In this document: in pieces, positions 37,399 to 53,558 of the stretch
Layout of the letters: each line of letters starts with the position of its first letter
Position numbering within the stretch: position 1 is the stretch's first letter
Assembly: GCF_005503535.1 (NCBI RefSeq)
Contig: NZ_SCNN01000001.1
Coordinates: forward strand, 806,001 to 870,000
From: Mesorhizobium comanense
GTDB lineage: Bacteria > Pseudomonadota > Alphaproteobacteria > Rhizobiales > Rhizobiaceae
DNA: 64,000 nt
Direction of reading: 5' to 3'
Made by a program: the position numbers and the translations under genes
The notes under the pieces: generated by a model
Told to the model about the DNA's origin: nothing
The model's database searches: none
What the model saw: the letters and a program-made list of their open reading frames with translations, nothing else

Positions 37399-37475
37399 GC
37401 CGTTGTAGCTCAGCTGGTTAGAGCGCCGGATTGTGGATCCGGAGGTCGCTGGTTCGATCCCAGCCAACGGTACCA
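37399..37475 (+). tRNA. tRNA-His (anticodon GTG), CCA encoded
   Basis: Complete cloverleaf: acceptor GCCGTTG/CAACGGT, D-stem GCTC/GAGC, anticodon stem CCGGA/TCCGG with loop TTGTGGA (anticodon GTG) and T-stem GCTGG/CCAGC with loop TTCGATC. The discriminator is A, followed by an encoded CCA. The base before the acceptor stem is T, so the usual G at -1 is not encoded and C73 is replaced by A73, the known alpha-proteobacterial form of tRNA-His. Confidence 0.96.
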
Positions 37476-37764: not shown

Positions 37765-38232
37765 CTAAAGCGGCAACCGGTTCGACCGCTTGATCTGCGC
37801 CAGGGCAAAGCTCGATTCGATAGACGCAACGCCATCCAACCGGGTCAACTTTTCCTTCAGGAAGCGCTCATAGGCGTGCAGGTCGCGCACGACGACGCGA
37901 AGCAGGTAATCGCGCTGACCTGTCATCAGGTAGCAGTCGACGACCTCCGGCCAGCGCGTGATCGCCGCGTTGAAGCGTTCGAGCTCGTCTTCGCGCTGAC
38001 GCTCCAGCTTGATTGATGCGAATACCGAAATCGGCAGGTCAACAAGATCCTGGTCGATGACGGCGGTGTAGCTGGTGATGACGCCCATGTCCTCCATCAA
38101 CCGCACCCGCCGCGCGCAGGGCGATGCCGACAGGCCGACCTTTTCGGCAAGCTGTTGCGCCGTCATGCGCCCGTCGATTTGCAGCGCATCGATGATCTTG
38201 CGGTCGATATCATCGAGCCTAGTTTTTGGCAT
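37765..38232 (-). CDS. Lrp/AsnC-family transcriptional regulator (MdeR-like context)
   Basis: 155 residues with an N-terminal AsnC HTH (LDDIDRKIIDALQIDGRMTA, then AEKVGLSASPCARRVRLM) and a C-terminal RAM ligand-binding domain. Such regulators sense amino acids. It is divergent from a homodimeric E1-type dehydrogenase gene, the arrangement seen for mdeR and mdeB in Pseudomonas putida, where methionine-derived 2-oxobutyrate is oxidised. It probably controls that gene through the shared intergenic region. Confidence 0.9.
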   Translation of the reverse strand: MPKTRLDDIDRKIIDALQIDGRMTAQQLAEKVGLSASPCARRVRLMEDMGVITSYTAVIDQDLVDLPISVFASIKLERQREDELERFNAAITRWPEVVDCYLMTGQRDYLLRVVVRDLHAYERFLKEKLTRLDGVASIESSFALAQIKRSNRLPL

Positions 38233-38240
38233 GAAACACC

Positions 38241-38267
38241 ATTCTTGATGTCAGAATTGACGAGAAT
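38241..38267. promoter_or_regulatory. Candidate Lrp-type operator
   Basis: ATTCT (38241-38245) and AGAAT (38263-38267) are inverted arms around GTCAGAATTGAC, itself an inverted GTCA/TGAC. It lies in the divergent promoter region, only 9 bases from the regulator's start codon. The size and AT-rich centre fit Lrp/AsnC sites; binding is inferred. Confidence 0.4.
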
Positions 38268-38360
38268 ACCTAAACTGGCCTCGTTGGAGGTGCAAGTTTG
38301 GCGAAAACCGCCTGTAGGCCTGACATATGCTGTGCAGGTTCAGAAGCGGGAGGAAGGTGC

Positions 38361-40751
38361 TTGGACAAAGGGAAATTGCAGGCGCTTTCAGCGCTGGAGA
38401 AAAAAGTGCTCTGGCTGGCGGCGTGGATGATCCACAACGCCAACCATCTGCGTGAAAACACCGACGGCCTGAAGGTTGGCGGCCACCAGGCGTCCTCGGC
38501 TTCGATGGCGACGATCATGACCGCGCTCTACTTCTCCGCGCTCAGGCCTGAAGATCGCGTCGCGGTGAAGCCGCACGCATCCCCAATATTCCATGCCATC
38601 CAGTATCTGCTGGGCAACCAGACACGCGCGAAGTTGGAGCAGTTCCGTGCCTTCGGCGGCGCGCAGAGCTATCCTTCGCGAACCAAGGACATCGACGACG
38701 TCGATTTCTCCACCGGCTCCGTGGGGCTCGGCGTTGCCCAGACGCTGTTTGCCTCGCTGGTGCAGGACTATCTGCGCGCCCGCGACGAGAATTTTGCCGA
38801 GGGCCGCATGGTGGCGCTGATCGGCGACGCCGAGATGGATGAGGGCAACATCTTCGAGGCGCTGCTGGAAGGCTGGAAGCATGGCCTGCGCAACTGCTGG
38901 TGGATTGTCGATTATAACCGCCAGAGCCTCGACGCCGTGGTGCGCGAGGGCCTGTGGGAGCGCTTCGAGAGCATCTTCCGCAATTTCGGCTGGGATGTCG
39001 TCATCCTGAAATATGGCTCGCTGCAGCAGGCAGCCTTCGCCGAGCCGGGCGGCGAGACATTACGTGCCTGGATCGATGCATGTCCCAACCAGCTCTATTC
39101 GGCGCTGACCTTCCAGGGCGGTGCCGCCTGGCGCAAGCGCCTGCTTGCCGACATTGGCGAGGAGCCAGGCATCGCGGCCCTGCTTGAACGTCGCCCCGAC
39201 GCCGATCTGGCTGCAATGATGACCAATCTCGGCGGGCATGATCTGCCCTCCCTGCTCAAGGCGTTCGAGACGGCGCGCGGCAACGACCGGCCGACCTGCT
39301 TCATCGCTTACACCATCAAGGGCTTCGGCCTGCCGCTCGCCGGCCACAAGGACAATCATTCCGGCCTGATGACCAAGGACCAGATGGCGACATTTCGCAC
39401 GTCGATGTCGGTCAGCGAGGGGCGAGAGTGGGATCACTTCGAGGGGCTGGACATCAAGGAATTGGAACTGCGACGGTTCCTCGATGCGGTGCCGTTCGCG
39501 GCCAAGGGCCAACGTCGGCGTCACGCACAACGCATCATCGTGCCCGACCGTCTTGTCTCGGAGGCCAAGGGCAGCGTTTCCACGCAGGTCGGGTTTGGCC
39601 GGATCCTGGACGAGATAGGCCGCGCCGGCGGGCCGCTCGCCGATGCCATCGTCACCACGTCGCCGGATGTGACGGTTTCGACCAATCTCGGCCCTTGGGT
39701 GAACCGGCGCGGGCTCTTCGCCCGTGAATCGCTGGCGGACACGTTCCGCAACGAGCGCATCGCCTCGGCGCAGAAATGGGAGTTCGGCACGTCCGGCCAG
39801 CATATCGAGCTTGGCATCGCCGAGAACAACCTGTTCATCCTGCTGTCGGCGCTCGGCCTGTCGCATTCGATCTTCGGCAAGCGGCTGCTTCCAATCGGCA
39901 CGCTCTACGATCCGTTCATCCAGCGCGGCCTCGATGCGCTCAACTATGCCTGCTACCAGGATGCCCGCTTCCTGCTCGTCGCCACGCCGTCGGGCGTGAC
40001 GCTGGCGCCCGAAGGCGGCGCGCACCAGTCGATCGCCACCCAGTTGATCGGCATGGCGCAGGACGGGCTTGCCGCCTATGAACCGGCCTTCGTCGACGAG
40101 TTGAGCGTCATCATGCGCTTTGCGCTGGATTACATGCAGCGCGACGGCGACGCCGTGCAGTCGGAGCGTACATGGCTGCGCGACGAGACCGGCGGTTCCG
40201 TCTATCTGCGCCTGTCGACGCGGCCGGTCGAGCAGATTGCCCGTGCCATGACGCCGGACCTCGAACAGGACATTGTCGACGGCGCCTACTGGCTGCGACG
40301 TCCGGGCCCGAATGCCGAACTGGTCGTCGGCTATACCGGTGCGGTCGCGCCCGAAGCCATCGATGCGGTCGGCATGATGGCGGAGGATCGCCGCGATGTG
40401 GGTCTGCTGGCGGTGACCTCGGCTGATCGGCTGAACGCCGGCTGGACGGCGGCAAGCCGTGCCCGCGAACGCGGGCTCGTCCATGCCAGAAGCCATGCCG
40501 AAAGGTTGCTTGCCGACCTGCCGTCTCATTGCGCCATCGTCACGGTGACCGACGGTCATCCGGCATCGCTCGGCTGGCTGGGTTCGGTCCACGGCCATCG
40601 CACGCGCAGCCTCGGCGTCGAGCATTTCGGCCAGTCGGGGACGATCGACGATCTCTACCGCCATTTTGGGATCGACGCGAACTCGATCGTCGCCGCAGGC
40701 AGCGGCATGACGGCCGGGCGGCCGATGCGCTATCTGCGCGCATTGGATTGA
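38361..40751 (+). CDS. Homodimeric E1-type 2-oxoacid dehydrogenase / transketolase-like protein (MdeB-like)
   Basis: About 796 residues, with transketolase-fold domains in the order TPP-binding, pyrimidine-binding and C-terminal. The TPP motif is GDAEMDEGNIFEALLEGW, ending near VDYNRQSLD, as in AceE-type pyruvate dehydrogenase E1. The length and motif fit MdeB, the 2-oxobutyrate dehydrogenase E1-like protein, more than ordinary transketolase. The TTG at 38361 was chosen because GGGAGGAAGG precedes it; the frame is open to a TTG at 38298. No E2, E3 or methionine gamma-lyase gene is adjacent. The substrate is inferred to be a small 2-oxoacid. Confidence 0.8.
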   Translation: MDKGKLQALSALEKKVLWLAAWMIHNANHLRENTDGLKVGGHQASSASMATIMTALYFSALRPEDRVAVKPHASPIFHAIQYLLGNQTRAKLEQFRAFGGAQSYPSRTKDIDDVDFSTGSVGLGVAQTLFASLVQDYLRARDENFAEGRMVALIGDAEMDEGNIFEALLEGWKHGLRNCWWIVDYNRQSLDAVVREGLWERFESIFRNFGWDVVILKYGSLQQAAFAEPGGETLRAWIDACPNQLYSALTFQGGAAWRKRLLADIGEEPGIAALLERRPDADLAAMMTNLGGHDLPSLLKAFETARGNDRPTCFIAYTIKGFGLPLAGHKDNHSGLMTKDQMATFRTSMSVSEGREWDHFEGLDIKELELRRFLDAVPFAAKGQRRRHAQRIIVPDRLVSEAKGSVSTQVGFGRILDEIGRAGGPLADAIVTTSPDVTVSTNLGPWVNRRGLFARESLADTFRNERIASAQKWEFGTSGQHIELGIAENNLFILLSALGLSHSIFGKRLLPIGTLYDPFIQRGLDALNYACYQDARFLLVATPSGVTLAPEGGAHQSIATQLIGMAQDGLAAYEPAFVDELSVIMRFALDYMQRDGDAVQSERTWLRDETGGSVYLRLSTRPVEQIARAMTPDLEQDIVDGAYWLRRPGPNAELVVGYTGAVAPEAIDAVGMMAEDRRDVGLLAVTSADRLNAGWTAASRARERGLVHARSHAERLLADLPSHCAIVTVTDGHPASLGWLGSVHGHRTRSLGVEHFGQSGTIDDLYRHFGIDANSIVAAGSGMTAGRPMRYLRALD

Positions 40752-40785: not shown

Positions 40786-42000
40786 TCACGTCCGTGCCGG
40801 GCCTGCAACGATGCTGCGATCATGCAGCCGTCCGATCTCGCCGTCGCTCAATCCCATCCCAGCCAGGATTTCATCGGTGTGCTCGCCTGGTAAAGGCGCC
40901 CGCGTTGCGCCGAGGCGGTTCGCTGAGGAGAAGTAGAGCGGCGACGCCGGCGTCAGCAGGGAGCCGATGCCGGGGTGATCGACCCTGGAGAAGAGCGGAT
41001 TGTCCGTTGAGCAGCGTGGGTCTTCCGCCAGCAATTGCTGAAAGGTCTGGTAAGGCCCCCACGAAACGCCTGCGTCGGTGAGTATCCGCCGCACCTCGGC
41101 AAAGCTTCGTGCCGAAAACCACGGCGCCAATGCCGCGCCGATTGCACCGCGTACCGCAAAGCGTCCGCCTTCCGTGGCAAGGTCAACTCCGGTTTCCGCC
41201 GTGAGGCCGGCCACGTCGAGACCTGTCGCCCGCTGTAGCGCGACCCACTGCCGGTCGGTCAAGGCCATCACCATCACGCGTCGGCCATCCGCGGTGGCGA
41301 AGTCGCGTCCGAAGGCGCCGTAAAGGAAGTTTCCATCCTTCTCCGCGTTCTCACCGAGTTCGGATTGCGCAAGTCGTCCAAGGTTGGCGACCATTGCCAG
41401 CGCTACATCCGATAGCGCCAGCTTCACCAGCGACCCCGTGCCGGTGCGGCGGCGGTGCCGGTCCGCCGCCAGTACCCCCACCGCGGCCATCTCGCCCATG
41501 GCAATGTCCCACGCCGGCAGCACGCTGTTGGTTGGCTCGTCCGCGCCACGCGGTCCCGTAATCTCGGGAAAACCGGTCGCGACATTGACTGTGTAATCCA
41601 CCTCGCTGGTCCCATCGGGATTGCCGCTCAGCGCGACCATGATGATATCGCCACGACGCGCCTTCAAGGCTTCGTAGGCGAGAGCGCCGCGGGCCGGCAG
41701 GTTGGTCAGGAAGATGCCGTGATCAGGCCCCGGGCGGGTGATCAACGCTGAAACGATATCCTGCCCTTCCGGCGAGCGCAGGTCGACCTGTATGGAGCGC
41801 TTACCCTTGTTCATACCGGCCCAGAACAGGCTCTGGCCGCTATCCGTCACCGGCCAGCGGCGATGGTCGAGCCCGCCGCCGATCTGGTCGAAGCGGATGA
41901 CATCGGCACCCAGTTGCGCCAGCGTCATGCCGCCGAGTGGCGCCGCCACGAAGGCCGATCCTTCGACGACGCTGAGGCCGGCCAGGATGCCACCGCTCAT
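40786..42000 (-). CDS. mct: Family III CoA-transferase, 2-methylfumaryl-CoA isomerase-like
   Basis: 404 residues of the CaiB/BaiF fold. The N-terminal segments VVEGSAFVAAPLGGMTLAQL and DQIGGGLDHRRWPVT, and the catalytic-Asp motif LPAWDIAMGEM, match my recollection of mesaconyl-CoA C1-C4 CoA transferase (Mct) of the 3-hydroxypropionate bicycle, which moves CoA between the two carboxyls of mesaconate. Its GTG/ATG region overlaps the end of the upstream MaoC gene by 4 bases. A hydratase next to Mct suggests a route from mesaconyl-C4-CoA to citramalyl-CoA, but no lyase is encoded here. Substrate range may differ in this cluster. Confidence 0.72.
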   Translation of the reverse strand: MSGGILAGLSVVEGSAFVAAPLGGMTLAQLGADVIRFDQIGGGLDHRRWPVTDSGQSLFWAGMNKGKRSIQVDLRSPEGQDIVSALITRPGPDHGIFLTNLPARGALAYEALKARRGDIIMVALSGNPDGTSEVDYTVNVATGFPEITGPRGADEPTNSVLPAWDIAMGEMAAVGVLAADRHRRRTGTGSLVKLALSDVALAMVANLGRLAQSELGENAEKDGNFLYGAFGRDFATADGRRVMVMALTDRQWVALQRATGLDVAGLTAETGVDLATEGGRFAVRGAIGAALAPWFSARSFAEVRRILTDAGVSWGPYQTFQQLLAEDPRCSTDNPLFSRVDHPGIGSLLTPASPLYFSSANRLGATRAPLPGEHTDEILAGMGLSDGEIGRLHDRSIVAGPART

Positions 42001-43007
42001 GCGAACAGTCCGATCAGCCGCCAGTGGAGTACGTCGGAAACCTTGCCCGCGAGATCGGTCGCCTTTGCGAATGACCGCAGATGGACAAGCCCTCCACCGG
42101 ACGGCAGTGCCTCACAGCGCTCTATCGTGACCTCGGAATGGATCGTATCGCCTTCATGCACCGGGCCGAGATGGTCGCAATCATGCCAGCCGAGAATGGT
42201 GACCATCGATGGGAAGACACGGGTCAGCTGCGCCGCGGCCAGCCCGATCGTGTGGCCGCCATATACAAGGCGTCGCCCGGACTGGGTACTGTCATGATGG
42301 ATGGCGGCCAGGTTCATCGTCAGCCGTGCCAGCTCCGGCGCGCTGCTGACCACGTCGCCGCCAGCCAGGCGATGCACCATCCCGGCATGCAGGTCGTTGA
42401 AATGCGGGCCCTGGACCGCCTTGCGATAGGCTTCGAGATTCCAACTCCCGACGGCTGCTGATGTCTGCATGGCAGTCAGTTCGGATCGCGGCAAATCGGT
42501 CTCACCTCGTGCATCCCTGTCATCGGCTTGCCGGGCCGGCAGCATGGCGCAACGACAGAAGTCGAGCACCGGCTGATCGTCCTGATCACTGGTCGCGATC
42601 CGCATGGTGACGAGGCCGCGCGGTGGCCGGCCGGCCTTGGCGCTGGCCGGCCGCAATCCGATGATCGTGGTGATGGTCTTGAGCGTATCTCCGATAGACG
42701 GCGCCCGGCGGAAGAACAGGCCGCGATAGAAGAGGTTGGCGATCGCCCGCTGGGTCACCAGCGTCGATTGGCCGATCGCGATGTCCCAGACCAGGGCCGG
42801 CGCGGCGAATGGCTGCTGCCTGCCGGTTACCGACGCAGACACATCGGCGTCGAAGGCCAGCCTGAGCCGGCCGCCGACAATGGCATGATGAACAGCGGCA
42901 AGACCGTCCGTCAGTCGCATCGCCGGTGCTGTATCGAACCGATCGCCGATCTTCAGATCGTCATAGAACGGTCCGTCGATGCCGATCGCGGAAGATTCGC
43001 TTGTCAT
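41997..43007 (-). CDS. MaoC-family double-hotdog enoyl-CoA hydratase
   Basis: 336 residues with two hotdog repeats: one opening FYDDLKIGDRFDTAPAMRLT and carrying WDIAIGQSTLVTQRA, the other with VYGGHTIGLAAAQLTRVFP followed by GPVHEGDTIHSEVTI. Length and duplicated layout fit the mesaconyl-CoA hydratase group of MaoC proteins. It probably hydrates the CoA ester handled by the neighbouring CoA-transferase. It lies third in the minus-strand operon, 18 bases after E1-alpha, with a 4-base overlap with the CoA-transferase. Confidence 0.75.
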   Translation of the reverse strand: MTSESSAIGIDGPFYDDLKIGDRFDTAPAMRLTDGLAAVHHAIVGGRLRLAFDADVSASVTGRQQPFAAPALVWDIAIGQSTLVTQRAIANLFYRGLFFRRAPSIGDTLKTITTIIGLRPASAKAGRPPRGLVTMRIATSDQDDQPVLDFCRCAMLPARQADDRDARGETDLPRSELTAMQTSAAVGSWNLEAYRKAVQGPHFNDLHAGMVHRLAGGDVVSSAPELARLTMNLAAIHHDSTQSGRRLVYGGHTIGLAAAQLTRVFPSMVTILGWHDCDHLGPVHEGDTIHSEVTIERCEALPSGGGLVHLRSFAKATDLAGKVSDVLHWRLIGLFA

Positions 43008-43025
43008 CCTTCGTAAGCCTGGATG

Positions 43026-44060
43026 CTATCGGGACCAGAAATGCCACCTCTGATCCCCTCCGGCCGAAGAGGCGCCGACATGCGACAGGATTTCTCCGAG
43101 ATCAGGTGCCGCCGAGTCCAGCACTTCGGCGGTTGCCCGTTCCACCGCGTCGCGCGTCTCGGCCTTCAACTGGTCGAGACCACCCGGCGCCAGAATGCTC
43201 TCGCTGACCAGCCTGTCGGCAAGAATGTCGATGGGGTCGCGCTTCAACCAGGCGTCCAGTTCGCCGGCCGGCCGGTAGGTTGCCGGGTCGGACCGCGAAT
43301 GGCCCGAATAGCGATAGGTCTTCATTTCGATCAAGGTCGGACCTTCGCCACGGCGCGCCCGCGCGACCGCGACGGCCATCGCCTCAGCGACCTTGTCGAC
43401 GTCCTGCCCGTCGACGATGACGCCGGGCATATTGTAGCTGGCGGCGCGCACCGCGATGTCCTCGACCGGTGTCGACAGTTCGATGCGCGTGTACTCGCCA
43501 TAGAGATTGTTCTCGCACACGAACACCACCGGCAGTCTGCGGATGGCCGCGAAATTCAGTGATTCATGGAAGGCGCCGATATTGGCCGAACCGTCGCCGA
43601 AGATCGAGACGGCGACGCGATCCTTGCCGCGCGCCCGTGCGGCCATCGCCGCTCCGCAGGCGATGGGCAACCCTGCGCCGATGATGGCGGCGGTCGGCAG
43701 CAGGCCAACCTCCGGCTCGACCAGATGCATGGAACCGCCAAGGCCGCCGGCACAGCCGATGACGCGGCCGCAGATCTCGCCGATCACGCCTTCCGGCGTC
43801 ACGCCAAGCGCGAGCGCGTGACCATGCCCGCGATAGGTGCAGGTGACGACATCGTCGGGATCGATCGAGCGGGCTATGCCGACCGAAACCGCTTCCTGAC
43901 CGCTGGCCAGATGCGTGCTGCCGCGGATATGGCCTTCGGCAAACAGCTTCTGGATGCGGTCCTCGACGAAGCGGATCTCGATCATCCGCGTGAGCTGCTC
44001 CAGCCTGTCCTGCAGGGCTTCGCGGCGGGCGATGGGCGAATTGGAATTGGAAATCGTCAT
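43026..44060 (-). CDS. 2-oxoacid (acetoin/pyruvate-type) dehydrogenase E1 alpha subunit
   Basis: 344 residues with the TPP motif GDGSANIGAFHESLNFAAI and NNLYGEYTR, typical of AcoA/PdhA. The ATG at 44060 was chosen because it overlaps the stop of E1-beta in ATGA and has GGAGGAA 7 bases upstream. The heterotetrameric E1 decarboxylates a 2-oxoacid and transfers the acyl unit to a lipoyl domain. It is unusual that beta precedes alpha and that no E2 acyltransferase or E3 follows; the only lipoyl protein nearby is the 78-residue one divergent from this operon. Confidence 0.9.
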   Translation of the reverse strand: MTISNSNSPIARREALQDRLEQLTRMIEIRFVEDRIQKLFAEGHIRGSTHLASGQEAVSVGIARSIDPDDVVTCTYRGHGHALALGVTPEGVIGEICGRVIGCAGGLGGSMHLVEPEVGLLPTAAIIGAGLPIACGAAMAARARGKDRVAVSIFGDGSANIGAFHESLNFAAIRRLPVVFVCENNLYGEYTRIELSTPVEDIAVRAASYNMPGVIVDGQDVDKVAEAMAVAVARARRGEGPTLIEMKTYRYSGHSRSDPATYRPAGELDAWLKRDPIDILADRLVSESILAPGGLDQLKAETRDAVERATAEVLDSAAPDLGEILSHVGASSAGGDQRWHFWSR

Positions 44061-45064
44061 GCTGCATTCCTCCACCAGGGCAAGGGCGGTTTGTTGGTCG
44101 AGACCAGTGCGGCCACCTGGTCCGCCACATAGGCCGGGCTTGGCAGGAAGCGGGCTTCAAGGGCGCCGCTGTAGGGCACGGGCGCGTCAGGAAGGGTGAT
44201 GCGATGCGGTGCGGCCTTCAGCTTGCCGAACGCCTCGACTGCGATCGACGAGACGACGTCGCCGCCCCAGCCGCTGCCGGCCGGCGCCTCTTCCAGCGTG
44301 ACCAGACGGCCGGTGCGGGCAACCGAGTCCATCACGGTCTTGCGGTCCCAGGGCCACAATGTCAGGAGATCGATGACCTCTATGTTGGCGCTGCTTGCCT
44401 CCGCCGCCGCCAGCGCGACACGTCGCATGGCGCCGCAGGTGACGAGCGTTACGTCGGTTCCCGGTCGCGCGATCTCGGCGTGGCCGAGCGGAATGCGGTA
44501 GTCGCGGTCGAATTCATATTCTTCGCGCTCGGCGTAGAGCACGCGCGGCTCGAGGATCACCACGGGATCCGGATCCTCGATCGCGGAACGCAGCAGGCCG
44601 TAGGTCGTGCGGGCGTTGCTGGTCACGGCGACCTTGAGGCCCGGCGTGCCCCGGAACCAATGGTCGAGCATCTGCGAATGCTGGCAGCCGAAGCCCTGGC
44701 CGGCGCCGGCCGATGCGCGCACGACGAGCGGCGTCGTCAGCCGGCCGCGCGACAGATAACGCATCGTCGCCGCCTGCGTCGTCAGCTGGTCGAGCGCGAC
44801 GCCGATGAACTCTATGAACATCATCTCGACCACCGGCTTCAGGCCGCAGACCGCGGCACCCACCGCCGCACCCATGAAGGCCATTTCGGAAATCGGCGTG
44901 TCGATCACCCGTTCCGGTCCGTGCGAGGCAAGCAGGCCTTCGGTCACCTTGAACGGGCCGCCGGCCACGGCGACATCCTCACCCATGACGATGACGCTCG
45001 GATCATCCGTCATCGCATCGTCAAGGGCCCTCAGGACCGCCTGCCGTATCCAGATTTTAGCCAA
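44057..45064 (-). CDS. 2-oxoacid (acetoin/pyruvate-type) dehydrogenase E1 beta subunit
   Basis: 335 residues of the AcoB/PdhB type: VIVMGEDVAVAGG near the N-terminus, DTPISEMAFMGAAVGAA, GGDVVSSIAVEAF and the C-terminal helical domain. First gene of the operon E1-beta, E1-alpha, MaoC, CoA-transferase. Its promoter region (45065-45308) is shared with the lipoyl-domain gene and holds a GAAACGTTTT site. Confidence 0.9.
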   Translation of the reverse strand: MAKIWIRQAVLRALDDAMTDDPSVIVMGEDVAVAGGPFKVTEGLLASHGPERVIDTPISEMAFMGAAVGAAVCGLKPVVEMMFIEFIGVALDQLTTQAATMRYLSRGRLTTPLVVRASAGAGQGFGCQHSQMLDHWFRGTPGLKVAVTSNARTTYGLLRSAIEDPDPVVILEPRVLYAEREEYEFDRDYRIPLGHAEIARPGTDVTLVTCGAMRRVALAAAEASSANIEVIDLLTLWPWDRKTVMDSVARTGRLVTLEEAPAGSGWGGDVVSSIAVEAFGKLKAAPHRITLPDAPVPYSGALEARFLPSPAYVADQVAALVSTNKPPLPWWRNAA

Positions 45065-45135
45065 GGTTCAAACCTCCCAATACGCTGTTCAGCCGTGTGT
45101 GCAGGGCATGAAGCTAGCCCAGTCGAAAAAATTTG

Positions 45136-45145
45136 GAAACGTTTT
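45136..45145. promoter_or_regulatory. LacI-type operator-like site before E1-beta and the lipoyl gene
   Basis: GAAACGTTTT matches the palindrome GAAACGTTTC found before the LacI-linked dehydratase gene in 9 of 10 positions. It lies in the intergenic region of the divergent E1 operon and lipoyl gene. Confidence 0.55.
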
Positions 45146-45147
45146 TA

Positions 45148-45176
45148 TTGATGCCGGACATCACTCTGTTTATAGC
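45148..45176 (+). promoter_or_regulatory. Candidate promoter of the lipoyl-domain gene
   Basis: TTGATG (45148-45153), 17 bases, TATAGC (45171-45176). It is a weak match placed 2 bases after the operator-like site, so repressor binding would interfere with it. Confidence 0.35.
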
Positions 45177-45308
45177 TGTGGAAGAGCCGCGTGCTTTCGA
45201 TGGATTGATGCGGTCACAGCCCTCTGGCGAATTCGCGCGTCCACCGTACGACCTTCCGGCGACCGGTGGATTCCCCTCAGTACTGGCGTTGCACACGGAG
45301 AATAGACG

Positions 45309-45545
45309 ATGCGTTCCACCCTTAAGATGCCCAAGGTCGGCGACGCCGTCGACGAAGTCGTGATTAACGATATCCAGGCCCAGATTGGCGCCAGGGTCGT
45401 TGAGGGGCAGACGCTGTTCGTTGTCGAAACCGACAAGAGCCAGATCGAGATTCCCGCGCCTTTTGGCGGCACTGTGGTGGAGATCCTGATTGCTGTCGGC
45501 GATGACGTCAAAACCGGCGCCCCGACACTCGTGCTCGAGGTCTGA
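45309..45545 (+). CDS. Stand-alone lipoyl-domain (biotin/lipoyl attachment) protein
   Basis: 78 residues forming one complete lipoyl/biotinyl domain and nothing else. It starts LKMPKVGDAVDEVVINDI; the modification hairpin is ETDKSQIEIPAP with the acceptor Lys at position 43, and the DK (not MK) motif indicates lipoate rather than biotin. There is no linker, no subunit-binding domain and no acyltransferase domain, so it is not an E2. It probably serves the E1 pair encoded divergently, as a free acyl or electron carrier. A ribosome site CGGAGAA precedes the ATG. Confidence 0.88.
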   Translation: MRSTLKMPKVGDAVDEVVINDIQAQIGARVVEGQTLFVVETDKSQIEIPAPFGGTVVEILIAVGDDVKTGAPTLVLEV

Positions 45546-45589: not shown

Positions 45590-47116
45590 TCATGACGAGA
45601 TCGCCGACATGTTCAAATCGCGGCGCAACAGTTTGCCATTGGCGCTGCGCGGCAGGCTGGGAACGAAGAACACCTGCCTCGGGCATTTGTAGGCGGCTAG
45701 GCGTTTGCCGGCCATGGCGACGATGTCTTCTGCGCTGACATCGACGCCTTCCTTGCGCACCACATAGGCGGCGATCACCGAAACGTCACCGCGCACACGG
45801 TGTTCGGCGACCGCGATTTCGGCGATGCCGGGGCAGGGCGCCAGCGCTGCCTCGACCTCCAGCGGCGAGACCCGGAAGCCGCCGGCATTCATCATGTCGT
45901 CGGCGCGGCCGTGATACCAGAGATAGCCGTCTTCATCGAAAGCGGCGAGATCGCCGCCGGCAAACCAGTCGCCGCGAAAAACCTGGCTTTCTTCATCAGC
46001 GCGCCGCCAATAGCCACGCATCAGGCCGGCATCGCCGCGATGGATGGCAAGCAGCCCGATGTTCCCGGTGGGCAGCGGCTCGTTCGAACCCGAAAGCGGC
46101 AGAATGGCGATGCGTCGTCCGCCCTGCGGCTTGCCCGGACTGCCCGGACGGATCGGCATGCCCGCGTGGTTGGAGATGAAGGTCGAGCATTCGCTCATGC
46201 CGAACGCCTCGTAGATCTCCCGCCCCGTGGCGGTCCGCCAGCCGTCGAGGACGGCAGGGCTGAGCGCCTCGCCTGCGGCAAGACCGTGCCGCAGCGTTGG
46301 CAGGCTGCTCGGTGTCAACGAACAGTATTTCTGCATCTGGCGATACAGCGAAGGCACGGCGGCGAACAGCGTGGCGCCGACGGCGTCGATCAGCTTGGGC
46401 CACACCTCGATATCCTTCGGCCCGTTGTAGAGCACGGCGGTGGCGCCGCAGGCCCAGGGGTCGAGCAGCCCGACGCCCAGCGTATAGCTCCAGTTGAACG
46501 CGCCGGCATGCAGCATGACGTCATCGGCGGTCAGCCCCTGCCAGTCGCGGTGCATCGGTGTGCGACCAAGCGCGGTACGATGCGCGTGGACGACTCCCTT
46601 GGGGCGGCTGGTCGTGCCGGATGTGTAGATCATGTAGGCCGGCGCTTCTGCCTCCGTGTCCGCATGGGTCGGAAGCGGTGGCGACGCCTTGAGACGGCCG
46701 ATCACTTCTTCGTCGATGATCTTGCAGTCCGACGGGATCGAAGCGATTGCCAGCGGCCCGGTCTGTGTGATGGCCGAGGCGGCGGAATCGTCGAGCAGAA
46801 AAGCGGCTTCGCCTTCCGTGAGTTGCGAGGAGACGGGGATTGGCACGAGGCCGGCCGAGATGGCGCCGAAGAACAGCAGGGCATAGTCGCTGGTGTTGGG
46901 CAGGCGCAGCAGGATCCGGTCACCACCAGTGAGACCTTCGGCAAGCAGCCCCGCGGCGACACTGCGCACGGCAAGGTCGAGGGCCGCATAGGTCCAGCGC
47001 TCGGCTTGTTCGGGTTTGCCGGCATCGCCGACCACGATCAGCGCCGCCTTGTCAGGCGTCGCGCGCGCGGCGCGACCGACGCAATGATCCGCGAGATTGA
47101 AGGATTTCGCGATCAA
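45590..47116 (-). CDS. AMP-dependent acyl-CoA synthetase
   Basis: 508 residues of the ANL superfamily: P-loop MIYTSGTTSRPKGVVHAH, motif YEAFGMSECSTFISNH, YHGRADDMMNAGGFRVSP and a C-terminal catalytic Lys in LPRSANGKLLRRDL. It activates a carboxylic acid (possibly aromatic or short-chain) to its CoA ester. Last gene of the seven-gene minus-strand operon that begins at 51446. Its ATG overlaps the stop of the SDR before it. It may feed a CoA ester to the MaoC/CoA-transferase operon. Confidence 0.87.
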   Translation of the reverse strand: MIAKSFNLADHCVGRAARATPDKAALIVVGDAGKPEQAERWTYAALDLAVRSVAAGLLAEGLTGGDRILLRLPNTSDYALLFFGAISAGLVPIPVSSQLTEGEAAFLLDDSAASAITQTGPLAIASIPSDCKIIDEEVIGRLKASPPLPTHADTEAEAPAYMIYTSGTTSRPKGVVHAHRTALGRTPMHRDWQGLTADDVMLHAGAFNWSYTLGVGLLDPWACGATAVLYNGPKDIEVWPKLIDAVGATLFAAVPSLYRQMQKYCSLTPSSLPTLRHGLAAGEALSPAVLDGWRTATGREIYEAFGMSECSTFISNHAGMPIRPGSPGKPQGGRRIAILPLSGSNEPLPTGNIGLLAIHRGDAGLMRGYWRRADEESQVFRGDWFAGGDLAAFDEDGYLWYHGRADDMMNAGGFRVSPLEVEAALAPCPGIAEIAVAEHRVRGDVSVIAAYVVRKEGVDVSAEDIVAMAGKRLAAYKCPRQVFFVPSLPRSANGKLLRRDLNMSAISS

Positions 47117-47883
47117 GAGACCCGCAGCCAGTCTGCAATGTGCACCATGCCCTGCACGGTCCAGCCGCCGTCAACGACCAGGGTCTGGCCCGTGATGTAA
47201 CTGGCCCGGTCACTGGCGAGATAGACGACCGGATCGGCGATCTCGACAGGCTCCGCGAGCCGCCCCATCGGAATGCGTTCGACCTGCCATTCGCCACGGA
47301 TGGAGCCATCCTTCAGCCCTTGCTCGATGAGCTTGGTGCGCGTGGAGCCGGGGGCCACCGCATTCACGCGGATGTTGGCGGAAGCGACCTCCGTGGCGTA
47401 GACGCGCGTCAGGCTTTCGATGCCTGCCTTCGCGGCGCTGTAGGGTCCACGGCCGGGGATGCCGACAATGCCCGCCGCCGACGCGATGCTGACGATGGCG
47501 CCGCCGCTGCCTCGCTCCCGCATGCGCCGGATCGCCTGTGCGCTGCACAGATGCATTCCGGTCAGGTGGGTGTTGAGAACCAGATGCCAGTCCTCGATCG
47601 GCATGTTCTCTGCCAGGGCGACCCGTTGCACGCCGGCATTGTTGACCAGCACGTCGACACATCCAGCCGTCCGGTCGATCTGGCTGAATGCCTTCGCGAC
47701 GCTCTCGGTATTTGCAACATCGGCGGTCAGATAGGTCACGCCTTCGCGCTTTTCGTCGGGCTCGCTGAGATCAAGGGAGAAGACCCTCGCGCCTTCCTCG
47801 AGGAAGCGAGCCGCGATGGCATCGCCGATGCCGCGTGCCGCCCCGGTTATGGCGGCGACCTTTCCCAACAGAGCTTGCGTCAT
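47113..47883 (-). CDS. SDR-family oxidoreductase
   Basis: 256 residues: cofactor motif TGAARGIGDAIA, Asp after beta-2 (FSLDLSEPD, suggesting NAD), VLVNNAGVQR and catalytic YSAAKAG. C-terminal ITGQTLVVDGGW is typical of the FabG-like branch. Overlaps the acyl-CoA synthetase start by 4 bases. In the presumed pathway it would oxidise a sugar or a 2-keto-3-deoxy acid; which of the three island SDRs does what cannot be told. Confidence 0.88.
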   Translation of the reverse strand: MTQALLGKVAAITGAARGIGDAIAARFLEEGARVFSLDLSEPDEKREGVTYLTADVANTESVAKAFSQIDRTAGCVDVLVNNAGVQRVALAENMPIEDWHLVLNTHLTGMHLCSAQAIRRMRERGSGGAIVSIASAAGIVGIPGRGPYSAAKAGIESLTRVYATEVASANIRVNAVAPGSTRTKLIEQGLKDGSIRGEWQVERIPMGRLAEPVEIADPVVYLASDRASYITGQTLVVDGGWTVQGMVHIADWLRVS

Positions 47884-47903
47884 GGCTTGCTCCTCCTTGC
47901 CCG

Positions 47904-48671
47904 CTAGTACATCAGCCAGCCGCCGCTGACATTGATGGTGGCGCCGGTGATGTAGCTGGCGTGGTTGGATGCCAGGAACAGCACGGAGCCGGCGAGTTCA
48001 GAGGGTGCGGCCATGTAGCCGAGCGGTATCTGCGCGACGGTAGCGGCCAATGCCGCATCGTCCATGCCCGAACGCATCATCGCGGTGTCGGCCGCGCCCG
48101 GCGATACCGCATTGACGGTGATCTTGTCCTTGGCCAGCGAGCGCGCCAGGCCTCGCGTCATCGAGACGATGCCGCCCTTGGTCGCCGCATAGGCCACGGA
48201 GCCGCCGAAGCCGCCGCTCATCCAGCCCTGCGAGGTGAAGTTGATGATCCTGCCGCCCGTGCCTTGCTCTTTCATGGTGCGGGCAACAGCCTGGCACAGG
48301 AAGAACGAGGCCTTGAGGTTGACGTCGTGCTGAATGTCCCAGTCGGCTTCGCTGACATCGAAGACGCTTGCCCTGCGGATCAGCACAGCCGCCGTCTGCA
48401 CCAGCACGTCAAGTCTGCCGAATGCTCCTACCACCTGTGCGATCAGTTCGGCATGACCACTGACTGGCCGCAGGTCGTGGCCGATCGCCAGATGCGGTCC
48501 GCCTTCCATTTCCCCCACCTGCGCGTCGACACGGCCCTGGTCGATGTCGACCACAGCAACGCGCGATCCGGCCGCAGCAAAGGCCAGGCAGACCTCGCGG
48601 CCGATGCCGCCCGAACCGCCGGTGACCAATACGGCTTTTCCTTCGAGGCCGGAGCCGATGTCGAACGCCAT
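47904..48671 (-). CDS. SDR-family oxidoreductase
   Basis: 255 residues: TGGSGGIGREVC, Asp after beta-2 (VAVVDIDQG), catalytic YAATKGG and a C-terminal ITGATINVSGGW. The NNAG motif is altered to VQTAAV, which is unusual for classical SDRs and may reflect a changed active-site wall. A strong ribosome site AGGAGGAA precedes the ATG. Confidence 0.87.
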   Translation of the reverse strand: MAFDIGSGLEGKAVLVTGGSGGIGREVCLAFAAAGSRVAVVDIDQGRVDAQVGEMEGGPHLAIGHDLRPVSGHAELIAQVVGAFGRLDVLVQTAAVLIRRASVFDVSEADWDIQHDVNLKASFFLCQAVARTMKEQGTGGRIINFTSQGWMSGGFGGSVAYAATKGGIVSMTRGLARSLAKDKITVNAVSPGAADTAMMRSGMDDAALAATVAQIPLGYMAAPSELAGSVLFLASNHASYITGATINVSGGWLMY

Positions 48672-48683
48672 GGGTTCCTCCTG

Positions 48684-49016
48684 TCAGCTTTCCGACGGTG
48701 GCGCGATCACCGTCTGTTCGGTGACGAAACACGATTGCGCCTCGCGCATGAATTTCTTGCGGTCTTCCACCAGCATCGAGTGGAACGGCTCGGTGGCGAA
48801 GGCCTTGTGCGCGTCCTCGATGCTGTCGAACCAGACCTCGCCGACGCCGTCCCACGCGGCGTCTTCCGGAGACCAGCTCTGCACGCGCCCGAAGCGCAAG
48901 CCACGGACACCAGGCATCTGGCGGACAATATCGGCATGCGGGCCGGTCCAGTGGGCGAAGAACTCTTCCTTGCTGAGCCCCTCCTTGCGACGCAGGAAAC
49001 TGACGCGCTTGATCAT
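48684..49016 (-). CDS. EthD-domain (dimeric alpha/beta barrel) protein
   Basis: 110 residues of ferredoxin-like fold: FLRRKEGLSKEEFFAHWTGP is the EthD/ABM opening and the C-terminal half carries VWFDSIEDAHKAFATEPF. Such small proteins act as dehydratases, isomerases, mutarotases or lactone-handling enzymes in catabolic operons. It overlaps the VOC gene by 4 bases. Confidence 0.83.
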   Translation of the reverse strand: MIKRVSFLRRKEGLSKEEFFAHWTGPHADIVRQMPGVRGLRFGRVQSWSPEDAAWDGVGEVWFDSIEDAHKAFATEPFHSMLVEDRKKFMREAQSCFVTEQTVIAPPSES

Positions 49017-49492
49017 GATGTGGCTGCCTTTGGCGGAATCTGGAACAGCTCCAGCGTAATGCCGTCATGGATGCGCAGATAGGCCGCTTGCGCGCCGATG
49101 TTGGGGCCACCGTCTATGGCGACCGGACCGTCTGGAGAGATCGGCCGGGCGCCGCAGCTGACGGCCCGCTGCCAGACCGCGCGGGCATCGGAAACCTTGA
49201 GGCAGAGATGCACATTGCCGGGGTTGGCCGTCACTTCGTCATTGGAGCTGCGCTCTACGGCCTGATAGTCGAGCAACTCGATCACGCCACCGCCGGGCAA
49301 GTCGACAAATGCCGCCTTGATGGTGATCCCGGGATAGCCGACGACCCGGCTGAGATAGGGCCGGTCGAGCACCGTGCTCCAGCGTGCCGGCCTGCCGAGA
49401 AAGCCCTCCCAAAAGTCGAGCGCGGCCTGCAGGCTGGCGACGCTCATCCCGATGTGATGGACACCTTCGATCGCTTCGATAGCGTCAGGCAT
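49013..49492 (-). CDS. VOC-family (glyoxalase/dioxygenase-like) protein
   Basis: 159 residues with two beta-alpha-beta-beta-beta modules. Metal-ligand-like residues are the His in VHHIGMSVASL, the Glu in GGGVIELLDY, the His in NVHLCLKVSD and the Glu in DGITLELFQIP, the 2-His-2-Glu pattern of the glyoxalase/epimerase group rather than ring-cleaving dioxygenases. It may act as an isomerase, epimerase or lyase. It is 9 bases after the amidohydrolase. Confidence 0.82.
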   Translation of the reverse strand: MPDAIEAIEGVHHIGMSVASLQAALDFWEGFLGRPARWSTVLDRPYLSRVVGYPGITIKAAFVDLPGGGVIELLDYQAVERSSNDEVTANPGNVHLCLKVSDARAVWQRAVSCGARPISPDGPVAIDGGPNIGAQAAYLRIHDGITLELFQIPPKAATS

Positions 49493-49501
49493 GTTGCCGC
49501 C

Positions 49502-50371
49502 TCATATCCTGAACAGGCGCTCGGCATTGCCCGAGAACATCGCTGTTTGTTCCGCCGTGGAAAATCCGGAAATGATCTCGGCATACGCATTGATCACATC
49601 CGGATAGGAACTGAACATGCGGTCCACCGGCCAGTTGGTGCCGAAGACGACACGGCCGGTTCCGAACGCCTCGATGCTGCCGAGCACATAGGGACGGATC
49701 GAATCCACCGTCCAAAGCGGATCACCCATGCCGAGCCCGGATATTTTCATGGTAACATTCGGGGACTTGGCCATCACATCCATTGCCGCCCTCCAGCGCT
49801 GGAAGCTCGCGGCATTGCGGCCCAACGGGATCGCGCAATGGTCGATGCAGATTTGTATTTCTGGGAAGCTGCGCGCTAGGTCGAGGATGTCGTCGGCCAG
49901 TTCGGCGCGGGTGTCTATGCACGAAACAAGGTTGCGCGGTCCGAGTTCGGCAAAGCCGCGGCGCCATGCCTTGTCGATCAGATAGCGCCCGTCGCCGAAA
50001 TTGCGGATGCCGCGCACATTGGCGAACTTCAGGTGCCGGTCCAGCACCTGCGCCGCGTCGGGCCGGGCCAGATGGCATTCCGCGACAACGCCTTGCGGAT
50101 AGCCGGTCTTGTCGGCGAAGCTCTGCAGCCATTCGGTCTCGACCACCGGGTCGGGCGTGTTGACCGCCGCCTGCACATGCACGGCCTTGGGGACGTTGGC
50201 GAAGCGGATTTCGGCGATGTAATCCTTGATGAAATAGTGCTGGGATTTCAGCGGGTCGGTGTCGGGCAGGAAACCGTGCACCGCATCGGGCTCCAGCCAG
50301 CCGTAGCGCAATTGCGCATGCTTCATGTCGTGCAGATGGAAATGCGTGTCGACGAAAGGAATATCAGCCAT
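49502..50371 (-). CDS. Amidohydrolase-2 family protein, probable lactonase
   Basis: 289 residues of the COG3618-type TIM barrel. The metal-binding HxH is at the N-terminus (FVDTHFHLHD), a central His is in IQICIDHCAIPLG, and the C-terminal catalytic segment is VVFGTNWPVDR. COG3618 members include L-fuconolactonase, so hydrolysis of a sugar lactone is likely. The ATG at 50371 directly precedes the conserved start and overlaps the TtuC-like gene's end by 8 bases. Confidence 0.84.
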   Translation of the reverse strand: MADIPFVDTHFHLHDMKHAQLRYGWLEPDAVHGFLPDTDPLKSQHYFIKDYIAEIRFANVPKAVHVQAAVNTPDPVVETEWLQSFADKTGYPQGVVAECHLARPDAAQVLDRHLKFANVRGIRNFGDGRYLIDKAWRRGFAELGPRNLVSCIDTRAELADDILDLARSFPEIQICIDHCAIPLGRNAASFQRWRAAMDVMAKSPNVTMKISGLGMGDPLWTVDSIRPYVLGSIEAFGTGRVVFGTNWPVDRMFSSYPDVINAYAEIISGFSTAEQTAMFSGNAERLFRI

Positions 50372-51446
50372 GGCGGCGTGCCTCGACCGGGTGAATGGAC
50401 ACCGCATCGGCAATGGCTTGGCCGAGCGAGGTTGTCGACGCATTGCCACCCATGTCAGGCGTCAGGTTTTCGACGGAAGCCAGCACGCGCTCGATGGCCA
50501 CGACAATCGCGTCGGCGGCATCCTTGGCACCGAGATGTTCCAGCATCATGGCGCCCGACCAGATCTGGCCGATCGGGTTGGCGATGTTCTTGCCAGCAAT
50601 GTCGGGTGCGGAGCCGTGCACCGGCTCGAACATGGACGGGAACCTTCGCTCCGGGTTGAGATTGGCTGAAGGCGCGATGCCAATCGTTCCGGTTACAGCC
50701 GGACCAAGGTCGGACAGGATATCGCCGAACAGGTTGCTGGCCACCACGACATCGAAGCTTGAGGGGCGGCGCACGAAATGCGCGGTCAGGATGTCGATGT
50801 GGTATTGCTCGGTGGCAATATCGGGAAAATCGCCTGCGACAGCGCGAAACCGCTCGTCCCAGAATGGCATCGTGTGGATGATGCCGTTGGATTTCGTCGC
50901 GGAAGTCAACCTGCGCTTGCGCTTGCGCGCCAGTTCGAAGGCGAACTTCATCACCCGGTCGCAGCCGAAGCGCGTCAGCACCGTGTCCTGGATGACCATT
51001 TCCTGGTCGGTGTCGGGGAACATGCGGCCGCCGACCTCGGAATACTCACCCTCGTTATTTTCGCGCACGATGTAGAAATCGATCGCGCCTGGCCGTGCCA
51101 GCGGTGAGGGCACGCCCTCGAAGAGCCGCACCGGCCGCAGATTCACATATTGCTGGAAATTGCGTCGGATCGGCATCAGCAGCGTCCACAGCGATTCCAC
51201 ATCGGAGACGGTCGGCCAGCCGATGGCGCCGAGAAAGATCGCATCATGTCCGGCAATGCGGTCGAGCCCGTTCTCCGGCATCATCCTGCCAAGTCTGGCA
51301 TGATGATCGCAGCCCCAGTCGAGATGATCCCATGCCAGATCGATGCCGAAGACACGCGCGGCCGCCTCGACGACTTTCACGCCCTCCGGAACGACTTCCT
51401 TTCCGATTCCGTCTCCTTCGATGACCGCGATCTTCGCTGAAGGCAT
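50364..51446 (-). CDS. Tartrate/D-malate-type decarboxylating dehydrogenase (isopropylmalate dehydrogenase family)
   Basis: 360 residues of the beta-decarboxylating dehydrogenase fold. Motifs are IAVIEGDGIGKEVVPEG, RPVRLFEGVPSPLARPG, VRENNEGEYSEVGGRMF, SNLFGDILSDLGPA and FEPVHGSAPDIAGKN. The WGCDHHARLGRMMPENG segment is characteristic of tartrate dehydrogenase/D-malate dehydrogenase (TtuC, DmlA) rather than LeuB. It would oxidise a 2-hydroxy acid next to a carboxylate, with or without decarboxylation, using NAD. First gene of the minus-strand operon. Confidence 0.87.
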   Translation of the reverse strand: MPSAKIAVIEGDGIGKEVVPEGVKVVEAAARVFGIDLAWDHLDWGCDHHARLGRMMPENGLDRIAGHDAIFLGAIGWPTVSDVESLWTLLMPIRRNFQQYVNLRPVRLFEGVPSPLARPGAIDFYIVRENNEGEYSEVGGRMFPDTDQEMVIQDTVLTRFGCDRVMKFAFELARKRKRRLTSATKSNGIIHTMPFWDERFRAVAGDFPDIATEQYHIDILTAHFVRRPSSFDVVVASNLFGDILSDLGPAVTGTIGIAPSANLNPERRFPSMFEPVHGSAPDIAGKNIANPIGQIWSGAMMLEHLGAKDAADAIVVAIERVLASVENLTPDMGGNASTTSLGQAIADAVSIHPVEARRHG

Positions 51447-51787: not shown

Positions 51788-51905
51788 CAGTCGGGAGTGG
51801 GAGCTTGGCTCCCGGAGGAGCATGCAGACATCGGGTCTCGATCTCGTCGCAACGCGGTGAGGTGATAGCCACGCGTTGTTGGCATGTCGAAAGACAGGGA
51901 GCACC

Positions 51906-52655
51906 ATGGGTTCGCCAATGCGCAGCCGCCGCGCCATTGTAACCGGAGCCGGCAGCGGCATCGGCAAGGCAGTTGCTTTGCGCCTCCTGCGTGAGGGCGT
52001 CGATGTGCTGGCGGTCGACATCGATGCGGCCAGGCTGGACGATCTGGCGAGCGCCGATTGCCGGATCAAGAGCGTGGATCTCACCGACCCGGCCGGGCGC
52101 GCAAAGCTGGCGGAGGCCGCCGACGGCGCCGACTACCTGGTCAATTCCCACGGCATCATCATGGTCAAGTCGATCTTCGACATCACCCTGGAGGACTGGC
52201 GCCAGGTACAGGCTGTGAATGCCGAGTCGGTGTTTTTCCTGTGCCAGGCCATCGGGCCGAAGCTGAAGCCGGGCGGCGCCATCGTCAATCTGTCGTCCAG
52301 CTCTTCCAAGCTCGCCTCCACGGTCGAAGTCGCGGCCTATGCCGCGTCCAAGACGACGATCCTGTCGATCACCCGATCCTTCGCCTATGCGCTCGCCTCC
52401 CGGCCGGTCCGGGTCAATGCCATCTGCCCTGGGATCATCGATACGCCGATGCAGGACAATGTGCTCGCCAGTGTCTCCAGGCTGCGCCGGACGGAGATCG
52501 CCACACTCGAGGAGGCGCGCACGCGCACCGTGCCGCTGGGGCGCGCCGCCAGTGCCGATGAATGCGCCGGCGCCATCTGGTTCCTGCTGTCGGACGAGGC
52601 AGCCTACATGACCGGGCAAGCGGTGAACTTCACCGGCGGCCTGGTGACCTGGTGA
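51906..52655 (+). CDS. SDR-family oxidoreductase (sugar or deoxy-keto-acid dehydrogenase)
   Basis: 249 residues: TGAGSGIGKAVA, Asp after beta-2 (VLAVDIDAAR, NAD type), LVNSHG in place of NNAG, catalytic YAASKTT and MTGQAVNFTGG at the end. The SHG variant of the NNAG motif is seen in SDRs of the 2-keto-3-deoxy-L-fuconate dehydrogenase type, so that role is possible. The ATG at 51906 follows AGGGAGCACC. First gene of the operon with a lactonase, an aldonate dehydratase and a transporter. Confidence 0.87.
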   Translation: MGSPMRSRRAIVTGAGSGIGKAVALRLLREGVDVLAVDIDAARLDDLASADCRIKSVDLTDPAGRAKLAEAADGADYLVNSHGIIMVKSIFDITLEDWRQVQAVNAESVFFLCQAIGPKLKPGGAIVNLSSSSSKLASTVEVAAYAASKTTILSITRSFAYALASRPVRVNAICPGIIDTPMQDNVLASVSRLRRTEIATLEEARTRTVPLGRAASADECAGAIWFLLSDEAAYMTGQAVNFTGGLVTW

Positions 52656-52668
52656 ACGGAGGATAAGC

Positions 52669-53547: not shown

Positions 53548-53558
53548 GAAAGTCCATC

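Follow-up and report, generated by a model that had tools for sequence, protein, structure and literature searches.

How does a 2-oxoacid dehydrogenase pass on its acyl group when no acyltransferase is encoded beside it? The question is raised by a stretch of 64,000 nucleotides from Mesorhizobium comanense (contig NZ_SCNN01000001.1, positions 806,001 to 870,000; hereafter the window), whose genome of 7.36 Mb we label G000. In this stretch, genes for E1-beta, E1-alpha, a MaoC-type hydratase and a relative of 2-methylfumaryl-CoA isomerase (Mct) follow one another, and a divergent fifth gene encodes a protein made of a single lipoyl domain (Table 1). We propose that the five genes encode a split 2-oxoacid dehydrogenase front end, whose lipoyl carrier is mobile and whose acyltransferase works in trans, and the processing of the CoA ester that follows; we regard this reading as evenly poised between right and wrong. 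What would speak for it is the conservation of the module, selection on the lipoyl gene, the lack of a linked E2 core in six of seven genomes, precedents for a split E2, the known case of OdhA, the residues of the Mct-like enzyme and a lyase gene in Devosia.

A first-pass annotation made from the window's letters alone had named these five genes with their families and positions, and open reading frames together with Pfam and PDB matches bear it out. It had also described one overlapping operon from E1-beta to the CoA-transferase. We find the same arrangement: E1-beta and E1-alpha overlap by 19 bases and MaoC and Mct by 4, with a gap of 18 bases between E1-alpha and MaoC. The lipoyl gene is divergent from E1-beta across 244 bases, and its acceptor lysine K43 is in place in the alignment, as had been claimed. 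The E1 subunits carry GDG...NN and DTPISE, the thiamine pyrophosphate (TPP) motifs of E1; with these and its E1_dh match, the window E1 shows the TPP-binding motif of a 2-oxoacid dehydrogenase complex.

Within the genus, an E1-beta match was obtained for 7 of 146 genomes, the window's own included (E <= 1e-95; each species was represented by one genome), and matches to E1-beta, E1-alpha, the lipoyl protein and Mct occur together in all seven, with MaoC in six. The gene set is thus found again in other genomes, and in Devosia as far as a contig shows. A class-wide search at the same threshold returned only the window's own genome (1/385), although it can miss relatives because the number of candidates scored in each genome was small (5 in its own). 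E1-beta, the lipoyl gene and E1-alpha are free of internal stops across the seven genomes. The lipoyl gene is kept in every one, with 82-99% identity between the window and the six others, and its ratio of nonsynonymous to synonymous substitution rates (dN/dS) is 0.03-0.14 in 21 of 21 pairs, which indicates purifying selection and therefore a real gene. K43 is invariant in all six stand-alone lipoyl proteins aligned, four from the genus and two from plasmids. In genome G496, the lipoyl gene lies directly upstream of E1-beta and in the same direction, giving the order ligase, lipoyl, E1-beta, E1-alpha, Mct on one strand.

In a tree of lipoyl domains, the window protein joins those of the AceF type (support 96/93; the alignment is short, long branches were flagged and the AceF sample consists of E. 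coli and G439). Two proposed origins for the gene, a fragment of the alpha-proteobacterial PdhB fusion of lipoyl domain and E1-beta or a fragment of the E2 from a sister E1-E2 set in G459, are unsupported, given this grouping with the two AceF proteins sampled. By appearance the lipoyl protein was not simply cut from that sister E2, because its grouping is AceF-type.

The first-pass annotation had reported neither an E2 core nor an E3 by the operon, and this holds over a wider range: within the window and 20 kb on each side, tblastn found no E2 core (PF00198; six E2-type queries, E <= 1e-3) and no E3 (two queries, E <= 1e-2). The genome does encode five PF00198 E2s, in open frames of 441-506 aa that all lie on other contigs, and an AcoC-type protein with lipoyl, E3-binding and alpha/beta hydrolase parts. 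Among the module genomes, a linked E2 was found in one of seven (G459, Mesorhizobium sp. 65-26) and in none of the other six. Relatives therefore bear out the absence of a linked E2 in five of the six other genus genomes, but not in G459, where an E1-alpha, E1-beta, E2 set stands about 19 kb away. This second set of G459 occupies L134:6696-9933, between an enolase-superfamily gene and an ABC transporter. G448 has only three PF00198 proteins, which by score and neighboring E1 places resemble those of pyruvate dehydrogenase (PDH), branched-chain 2-oxoacid dehydrogenase (BCKDH) and 2-oxoglutarate dehydrogenase (ODH), so that the module there would depend on a housekeeping E2. Elsewhere in the window's genome, on contig C66 (L150:7087-11279), a fused E1-alpha-E1-beta-lipoyl protein of 811 aa is followed by a 2-hydroxyacid-dehydrogenase-like gene (named by reading) and then by a 239-aa protein with an E3-binding domain and no PF00198 match; this locus appears to be another E1 with a lipoyl domain and without an evident E2 core.

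Similar arrangements occur in other bacteria. We searched plasmids with the window lipoyl protein and then with its Azospirillum counterpart, took the best 60 of 230 and 40 of 141 records and opened ten stretches; because PLSDB gene tables are incomplete, absence of an E2 was judged by tblastn of the fetched DNA. Sphingobium B90A (L141), Azospirillum B510 (L142), Streptomyces NBC_00564 (L147) and Rubrobacter (L148) have E1-alpha, E1-beta and a lipoyl gene with no E2 core in the fetched stretch, and all of these except L148 also have an acyl-CoA ligase gene nearby. In Paraburkholderia PGU19 (L144:5991-9001) and Diaphorobacter HDW4B (L145:5992-8985), E1-alpha, E1-beta and a free lipoyl gene are followed by an E2 core of 250 aa without a lipoyl domain (PF00198 7.6e-70 in L144); both sets sit in plasmid clusters with DUF1302, DUF1329 and MMPL genes. 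The remaining stretches are less complete or more ordinary: Sphingobium TKS (L140) retains only E1-beta and lipoyl behind IS6100, Sphingobium RAC03 (L146) has its lipoyl and E1 genes about 4 kb apart, TomTYG46 (L149) has a lipoyl gene and no annotated E1, and L143 has an ordinary E2. A class-wide lipoyl search matched in 364 of 385 genomes, because the lipoyl domains of E2s match as well. Among 30 loci fetched from it, six combine E1 and a lipoyl domain without an E2 core (the window's own, L154, L155, L157, L161 and L174), of which L155 and L174 are not stand-alone lipoyl proteins, since their frames are 412 and 441 aa. G846, G717 and G887 have E1-alpha and E1-beta with a short lipoyl frame (146, 87 and 93 aa) and no core within about 1.5 kb. 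In the E1 trees, whose deeper nodes have modest support, neither the Azospirillum-type group nor the E1s of B90A and Rubrobacter fall with the module. Detachment of the lipoyl domain has therefore probably happened more than once. The reading given in the first-pass annotation, an E1 that works with a mobile lipoyl carrier, thus stands as to the carrier being a separate protein, but the combination is not unique to this pathway and twice has a detached E2 core adjoining it. As a separate observation, VOC-family genes at L006:7089-7550, L132:14406-14855 and L161:1697-2251 (the last named by reading) adjoin or lie near three different E1-alpha/E1-beta sets, where they perhaps encode an isomerase for the E1 substrate.

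The downstream genes may act on CoA esters of branched C5 dicarboxylates. The closest PDB entries to the Mct-like protein are the two solved Mct structures (7xkg, 1.8e-161; 8apq, 1.7e-152), and a group of 25 rows with the module inside it splits from three other family III enzymes at 100/99. All seven module enzymes in the tree cluster together (100/100), and a fork of 15 rows with modest support (81/89) unites the module with 7xkg, 8apq, three genomes of the order and three of five relatives linked to acyl-CoA dehydrogenases. The tree and alignment left out the frameshifted Mct of G518; 12 other genomes of the order had an Mct match, of which G159, G157, G226, G075, G029, G015 and G307 were unused, and 7 of 31 plasmid records were used. 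For the catalytic, substrate and pocket residues we relied on the sections consulted of PMC9813914 and PMC9196870. In the alignment, the catalytic and substrate residues D165, R47 and Y136 are present in the window protein. Of the cork residues (L/I43, R75, F101 and R104), L43, R75 and R104 are kept and F101 is replaced by L; in addition, I74 is replaced by L and R314 by G. The likeness to Mct noted in the first-pass annotation is therefore upheld by tree and catalytic residues, but the TIGR04253 score of 530.6 bits stays under the curated cut-off of 725.

The MaoC protein has no Pfam match at 1e-3. Its PDB matches are 2bi0 (Rv0216; 4.8e-97), which we take to be a double hotdog, and the beta-methylmalyl-CoA dehydratase 8hgn (2.5e-23); to these it is nearer than to the itaconyl/mesaconyl-CoA hydratase RipB/Ich (NF038241, 46.5 bits, cut-off 340). 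Across 14 MaoC loci, an Mct relative (at least 45%) is present in six and a CitE-type lyase in eight, seven of these within 150 bases of MaoC. Such neighbors tie MaoC to Mct and lyase chemistry whether or not an E1 is present. In actinobacteria (L007, L013, L015, L016, L017 and L019), relatives of the Rv0216 type stand at most 150 bases from a CitE-type lyase gene. Next after the lipoyl gene in G448, G459 and G495 come a single-domain MaoC (MaoC2; 136.6 bits to RipB/Ich in L006 of G459, cut-off 340) and a second CaiB-type CoA-transferase (CaiB2). The contig of a Devosia metagenome-assembled genome (L018) starts within the E1-alpha gene, after which come a lyase gene, MaoC and Mct; E1-beta and any lipoyl gene would fall past the contig end. 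This lyase is of the RipC/CitE type and resembles citramalyl-CoA lyase (RipC_Ccl 168.4 bits, cut-off 375; HpcH_HpaI 1.1e-34). All seven module genomes have lyase homologues elsewhere in the genome, at 34-42%. The ending in acetyl-CoA and a 2-oxoacid that had been suggested for the pathway fits the lyase inside the Devosia operon, but in the seven genus genomes no lyase was found beside the module.

Taken together, the genes would allow the following route. E1-alpha/beta would decarboxylate a 2-oxoacid, probably derived from a sugar acid by the neighboring SDR, lactonase-like and dehydratase-like enzymes, and would reductively acylate the 78-aa lipoyl protein as a diffusible arm, much like an H-protein. 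An acyltransferase encoded elsewhere, one of the five PF00198 E2s or the AcoC-type protein, might then transfer the acyl group from the arm to CoA, and the arm would be reoxidized by a general, shared E3. The product may be, or may give rise to, a branched C5 dicarboxylyl-CoA, in which the Mct-like enzyme would shift CoA between carboxyls before MaoC hydrates the result; cleavage to acetyl-CoA and a 2-oxoacid could fall to a lyase of the citramalyl-CoA type, encoded within the operon in Devosia and elsewhere in the genomes of the genus. Since the Mct step implies a branched C5 dicarboxylyl-CoA, the E1 substrate might be a C6 2-oxo-dicarboxylate or something similar, although we find this piece of chemistry doubtful. 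Lipoylation, the pairing of E1 with the lipoyl protein, transfer in trans, substrate and products are all inferred from genes, motifs and conservation.

A cluster of the sugar-acid type, which the first-pass annotation had not mentioned, runs from the module to the right end of the window. It begins with an acyl-CoA ligase gene, likewise missed before, that adjoins the lipoyl gene in the window, G439, G518 and G496, with MaoC2 and CaiB2 in between in G495 and G459. Also in the cluster are a second enolase-superfamily protein and, named by reading, sugar ABC transporters and a regulator of the LacI type. The SMP-30-type gene was likewise named by reading, with no NCBIfam match, and the amidohydrolase is presumably COG3618; PDB matches of the amidohydrolase and the two enolase-superfamily proteins named no substrate. 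We weighed 6-deoxy sugars, branched sugars and aldarates as the sugar chemistry and chose none. On the other side of the module, an AceE-like transketolase-family gene stands beside an Lrp-type gene in the window, L127, L128 and L057. The recurrence of this pair, with AceE-like matches in 57 of 146 genus genomes, makes it look like an independent unit, and we rejected the AceE-like gene as a core part of a module that occurs in seven. A tRNA-His gene at 37399-37475, beside the left end of the unit, may mark an island boundary.

Table 1. Genes of the window discussed in the text; positions count from the first base of the window.
Feature	Positions	Strand	Evidence and remarks
Mct-like family III CoA-transferase (2-methylfumaryl-CoA isomerase relative)	40786-42000	-	404 aa; CoA_transf_3 3.2e-57
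MaoC-type hydratase/dehydratase (double hotdog)	41997-43007	-	336 aa; PDB matches
E1-alpha	43026-44075	-	349 aa; E1_dh 1.1e-79; GDG...NN
E1-beta, TTG start	44057-45064	-	335 aa; Transket_pyr 3.1e-39 and Transketolase_C 6.1e-31; DTPISE
Stand-alone lipoyl domain protein, acceptor K43	45309-45545	+	78 aa; Biotin_lipoyl 1e-16
AMP-forming acyl-CoA ligase	45590-47116	-	AMP-binding 1e-65; probable member of the same cluster
SDR, SDR, EthD and VOC genes	47113-49492	-	matches in order in 6/7 genomes
Amidohydrolase	49502-50449	-	L-fuconolactonase model 67.6 bits (cut-off 400); in order in 6/7 genomes
Tartrate dehydrogenase family gene	50364-51446	-	TIGR02089 521.5 bits, above cut-off 470.4; in order in 6/7 genomes
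SDR, SMP-30-type gene, enolase-superfamily gene	51876-54698	+	in order in 6/7 genomes
AceE-like transketolase-family gene	38298-40751		817 aa; unit with divergent Lrp/AsnC-type gene (by reading), 37765-40751

Several observations weigh against a split dehydrogenase with a mobile carrier. The E1-alpha, E1-beta, E2 set that G459 keeps near its module belongs to the same sugar cluster, and among the sets sampled no outside E1s are more closely related to those of the module (E1-alpha, 100/97 in one tree and 99/99 in a second; E1-beta, 81/83 and 85/94, flagged as a possible long-branch artefact; the second pair of trees left out G439 and G448), while the lipoyl protein groups with AceF-type domains, apart from the lipoyl domain of that set. 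MaoC has no match in the fetched G496 stretch, Mct is frameshifted in G518 and split over two frames (L050:2459-3669), and the ligase is a fragment in G448 and broken in G459, where its two matching pieces are separated by a gap of about 50 unmatched residues (L006:26-1361). The Mct pocket reads P43, K75 and Y104 in G496, R75 is changed in G448, and no lyase, as said, was found beside the module in the genus. The sister set with its E2 and the lost or damaged MaoC, Mct and ligase genes are what one would expect of an operon in decay, in which the E2 of an ordinary E1-E1-E2 complex has disappeared, leaving E1, lipoyl and Mct genes behind as relics or as accessories of a housekeeping complex. 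We consider decay improbable, given that E1-beta, lipoyl and E1-alpha are open in all seven genomes, that the lipoyl gene is under purifying selection and that its domain is not of the sister E2's type.

The AceF-type grouping of the lipoyl domain would also suit a partnership with the AceE-like neighbor instead of E1-alpha/beta, and the AceE-like gene is indeed present in all seven module genomes (in G448 it covers just residues 341-817), whereas the genus as a whole has it in 57 of 146; seven in seven by chance would have a probability of about 0.001. Yet it occurs in many genomes beyond those seven, stands next to its Lrp-type gene in the window, L127, L128 and L057, lies far from the module in G448 and G495 and scores far under the aceE cut-off, and in G496 the lipoyl gene runs with E1-beta; such a partnership is very unlikely. 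The E1 itself could instead perform an acetoin-type cleavage of an alpha-hydroxyketone or diketone. A plasmid search with E1-beta gave 24 records, none of which reaches 60% identity (those tabulated have 44-47%), and the E1 adjoins an E2-annotated gene in all six examined, which in three is annotated as acetoin dehydrogenase E2; the VOC-type genes beside or near several E1 sets, possibly isomerases, would fit as well. Both trees, however, place the module E1s outside the acetoin clade, and we judge this activity unlikely. Mct and MaoC, finally, might be a separate C5-dicarboxylate unit that merely adjoins an E1 making an unrelated acyl-CoA. Relatives of Mct, MaoC and the lyase do occur without an E1 nearby, the Mct relatives beside acyl-CoA dehydrogenase, MaoC or lyase genes, but in Devosia and in each of the seven genus genomes Mct comes after E1 in the same direction, and MaoC and Mct overlap in the window, which makes mere adjacency quite improbable.

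It is tempting to go further and see a repeatedly evolved class of catabolic 2-oxoacid dehydrogenases that have a free, dedicated lipoyl carrier and a detached or shared acyltransferase and that, in Mesorhizobium, serve a new sugar-acid route whose end section uses intramolecular CoA transfer on CoA esters of the mesaconyl or citramalyl type. We offer this only tentatively. These dehydrogenases are usually described with their lipoyl arm tethered to an E2 core. If a free carrier does serve E1 in several bacterial groups, tethering would be optional and its advantage directly measurable, the carrier would be a small modular part for pathway design, and the Mct reaction, known from the 3-hydroxypropionate bi-cycle, would take a place in sugar-acid breakdown. 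Stand-alone lipoyl proteins as such are already published, being listed as an archaeal class in the portion consulted of PMC3904984. For the arrangement of E1 with a free lipoyl protein, we found no description in the titles and abstract openings of the open-access literature searched, a scope that mostly leaves out subscription journals.

Compared with known systems, the Mct-like enzyme shares a larger clade and the residues D165, R47, Y136, L43, R75 and R104 with Mct of Chloroflexus and Roseiflexus, but differs from it by F101L, I74L and R314G, by its TIGR04253 score and by its place in a sugar-type cluster instead of the 3-hydroxypropionate bi-cycle. The consulted portion of PMC12290011 describes ict-ich-ccl clusters, including one from a Mesorhizobium, in which itaconyl-CoA hydratase doubles as mesaconyl-C4-CoA hydratase. 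The sister loci resemble these clusters in their CaiB-type transferase, Ich-like MaoC2 and Ccl-like lyase relatives, all under the NCBIfam cut-offs, whereas that portion names no E1 or lipoyl gene. With the heterotetrameric-E1 complexes (PDH, BCKDH and acetoin dehydrogenase), the module has in common E1-alpha and E1-beta with TPP motifs and a lipoyl domain of the same Pfam family; unlike them, it has no linked E2 core or E3 in the range searched, and its lipoyl domain is a separate protein. The glycine cleavage H-protein is a free lipoyl carrier that shuttles between enzymes, and the window protein would be alike in this, although it matches Biotin_lipoyl and not GCV_H (at 1e-3) and its partners differ. 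The nearest precedent for division of labor is actinobacterial OdhA, which, in the portion consulted of PMC10415282, relies on a lipoyl-lysine supplied in trans by AceF: there the lipoyl domain is part of another complex's E2 and in the window it is a free protein, yet in both the lipoyl carrier and the acyltransferase would be on separate polypeptides.

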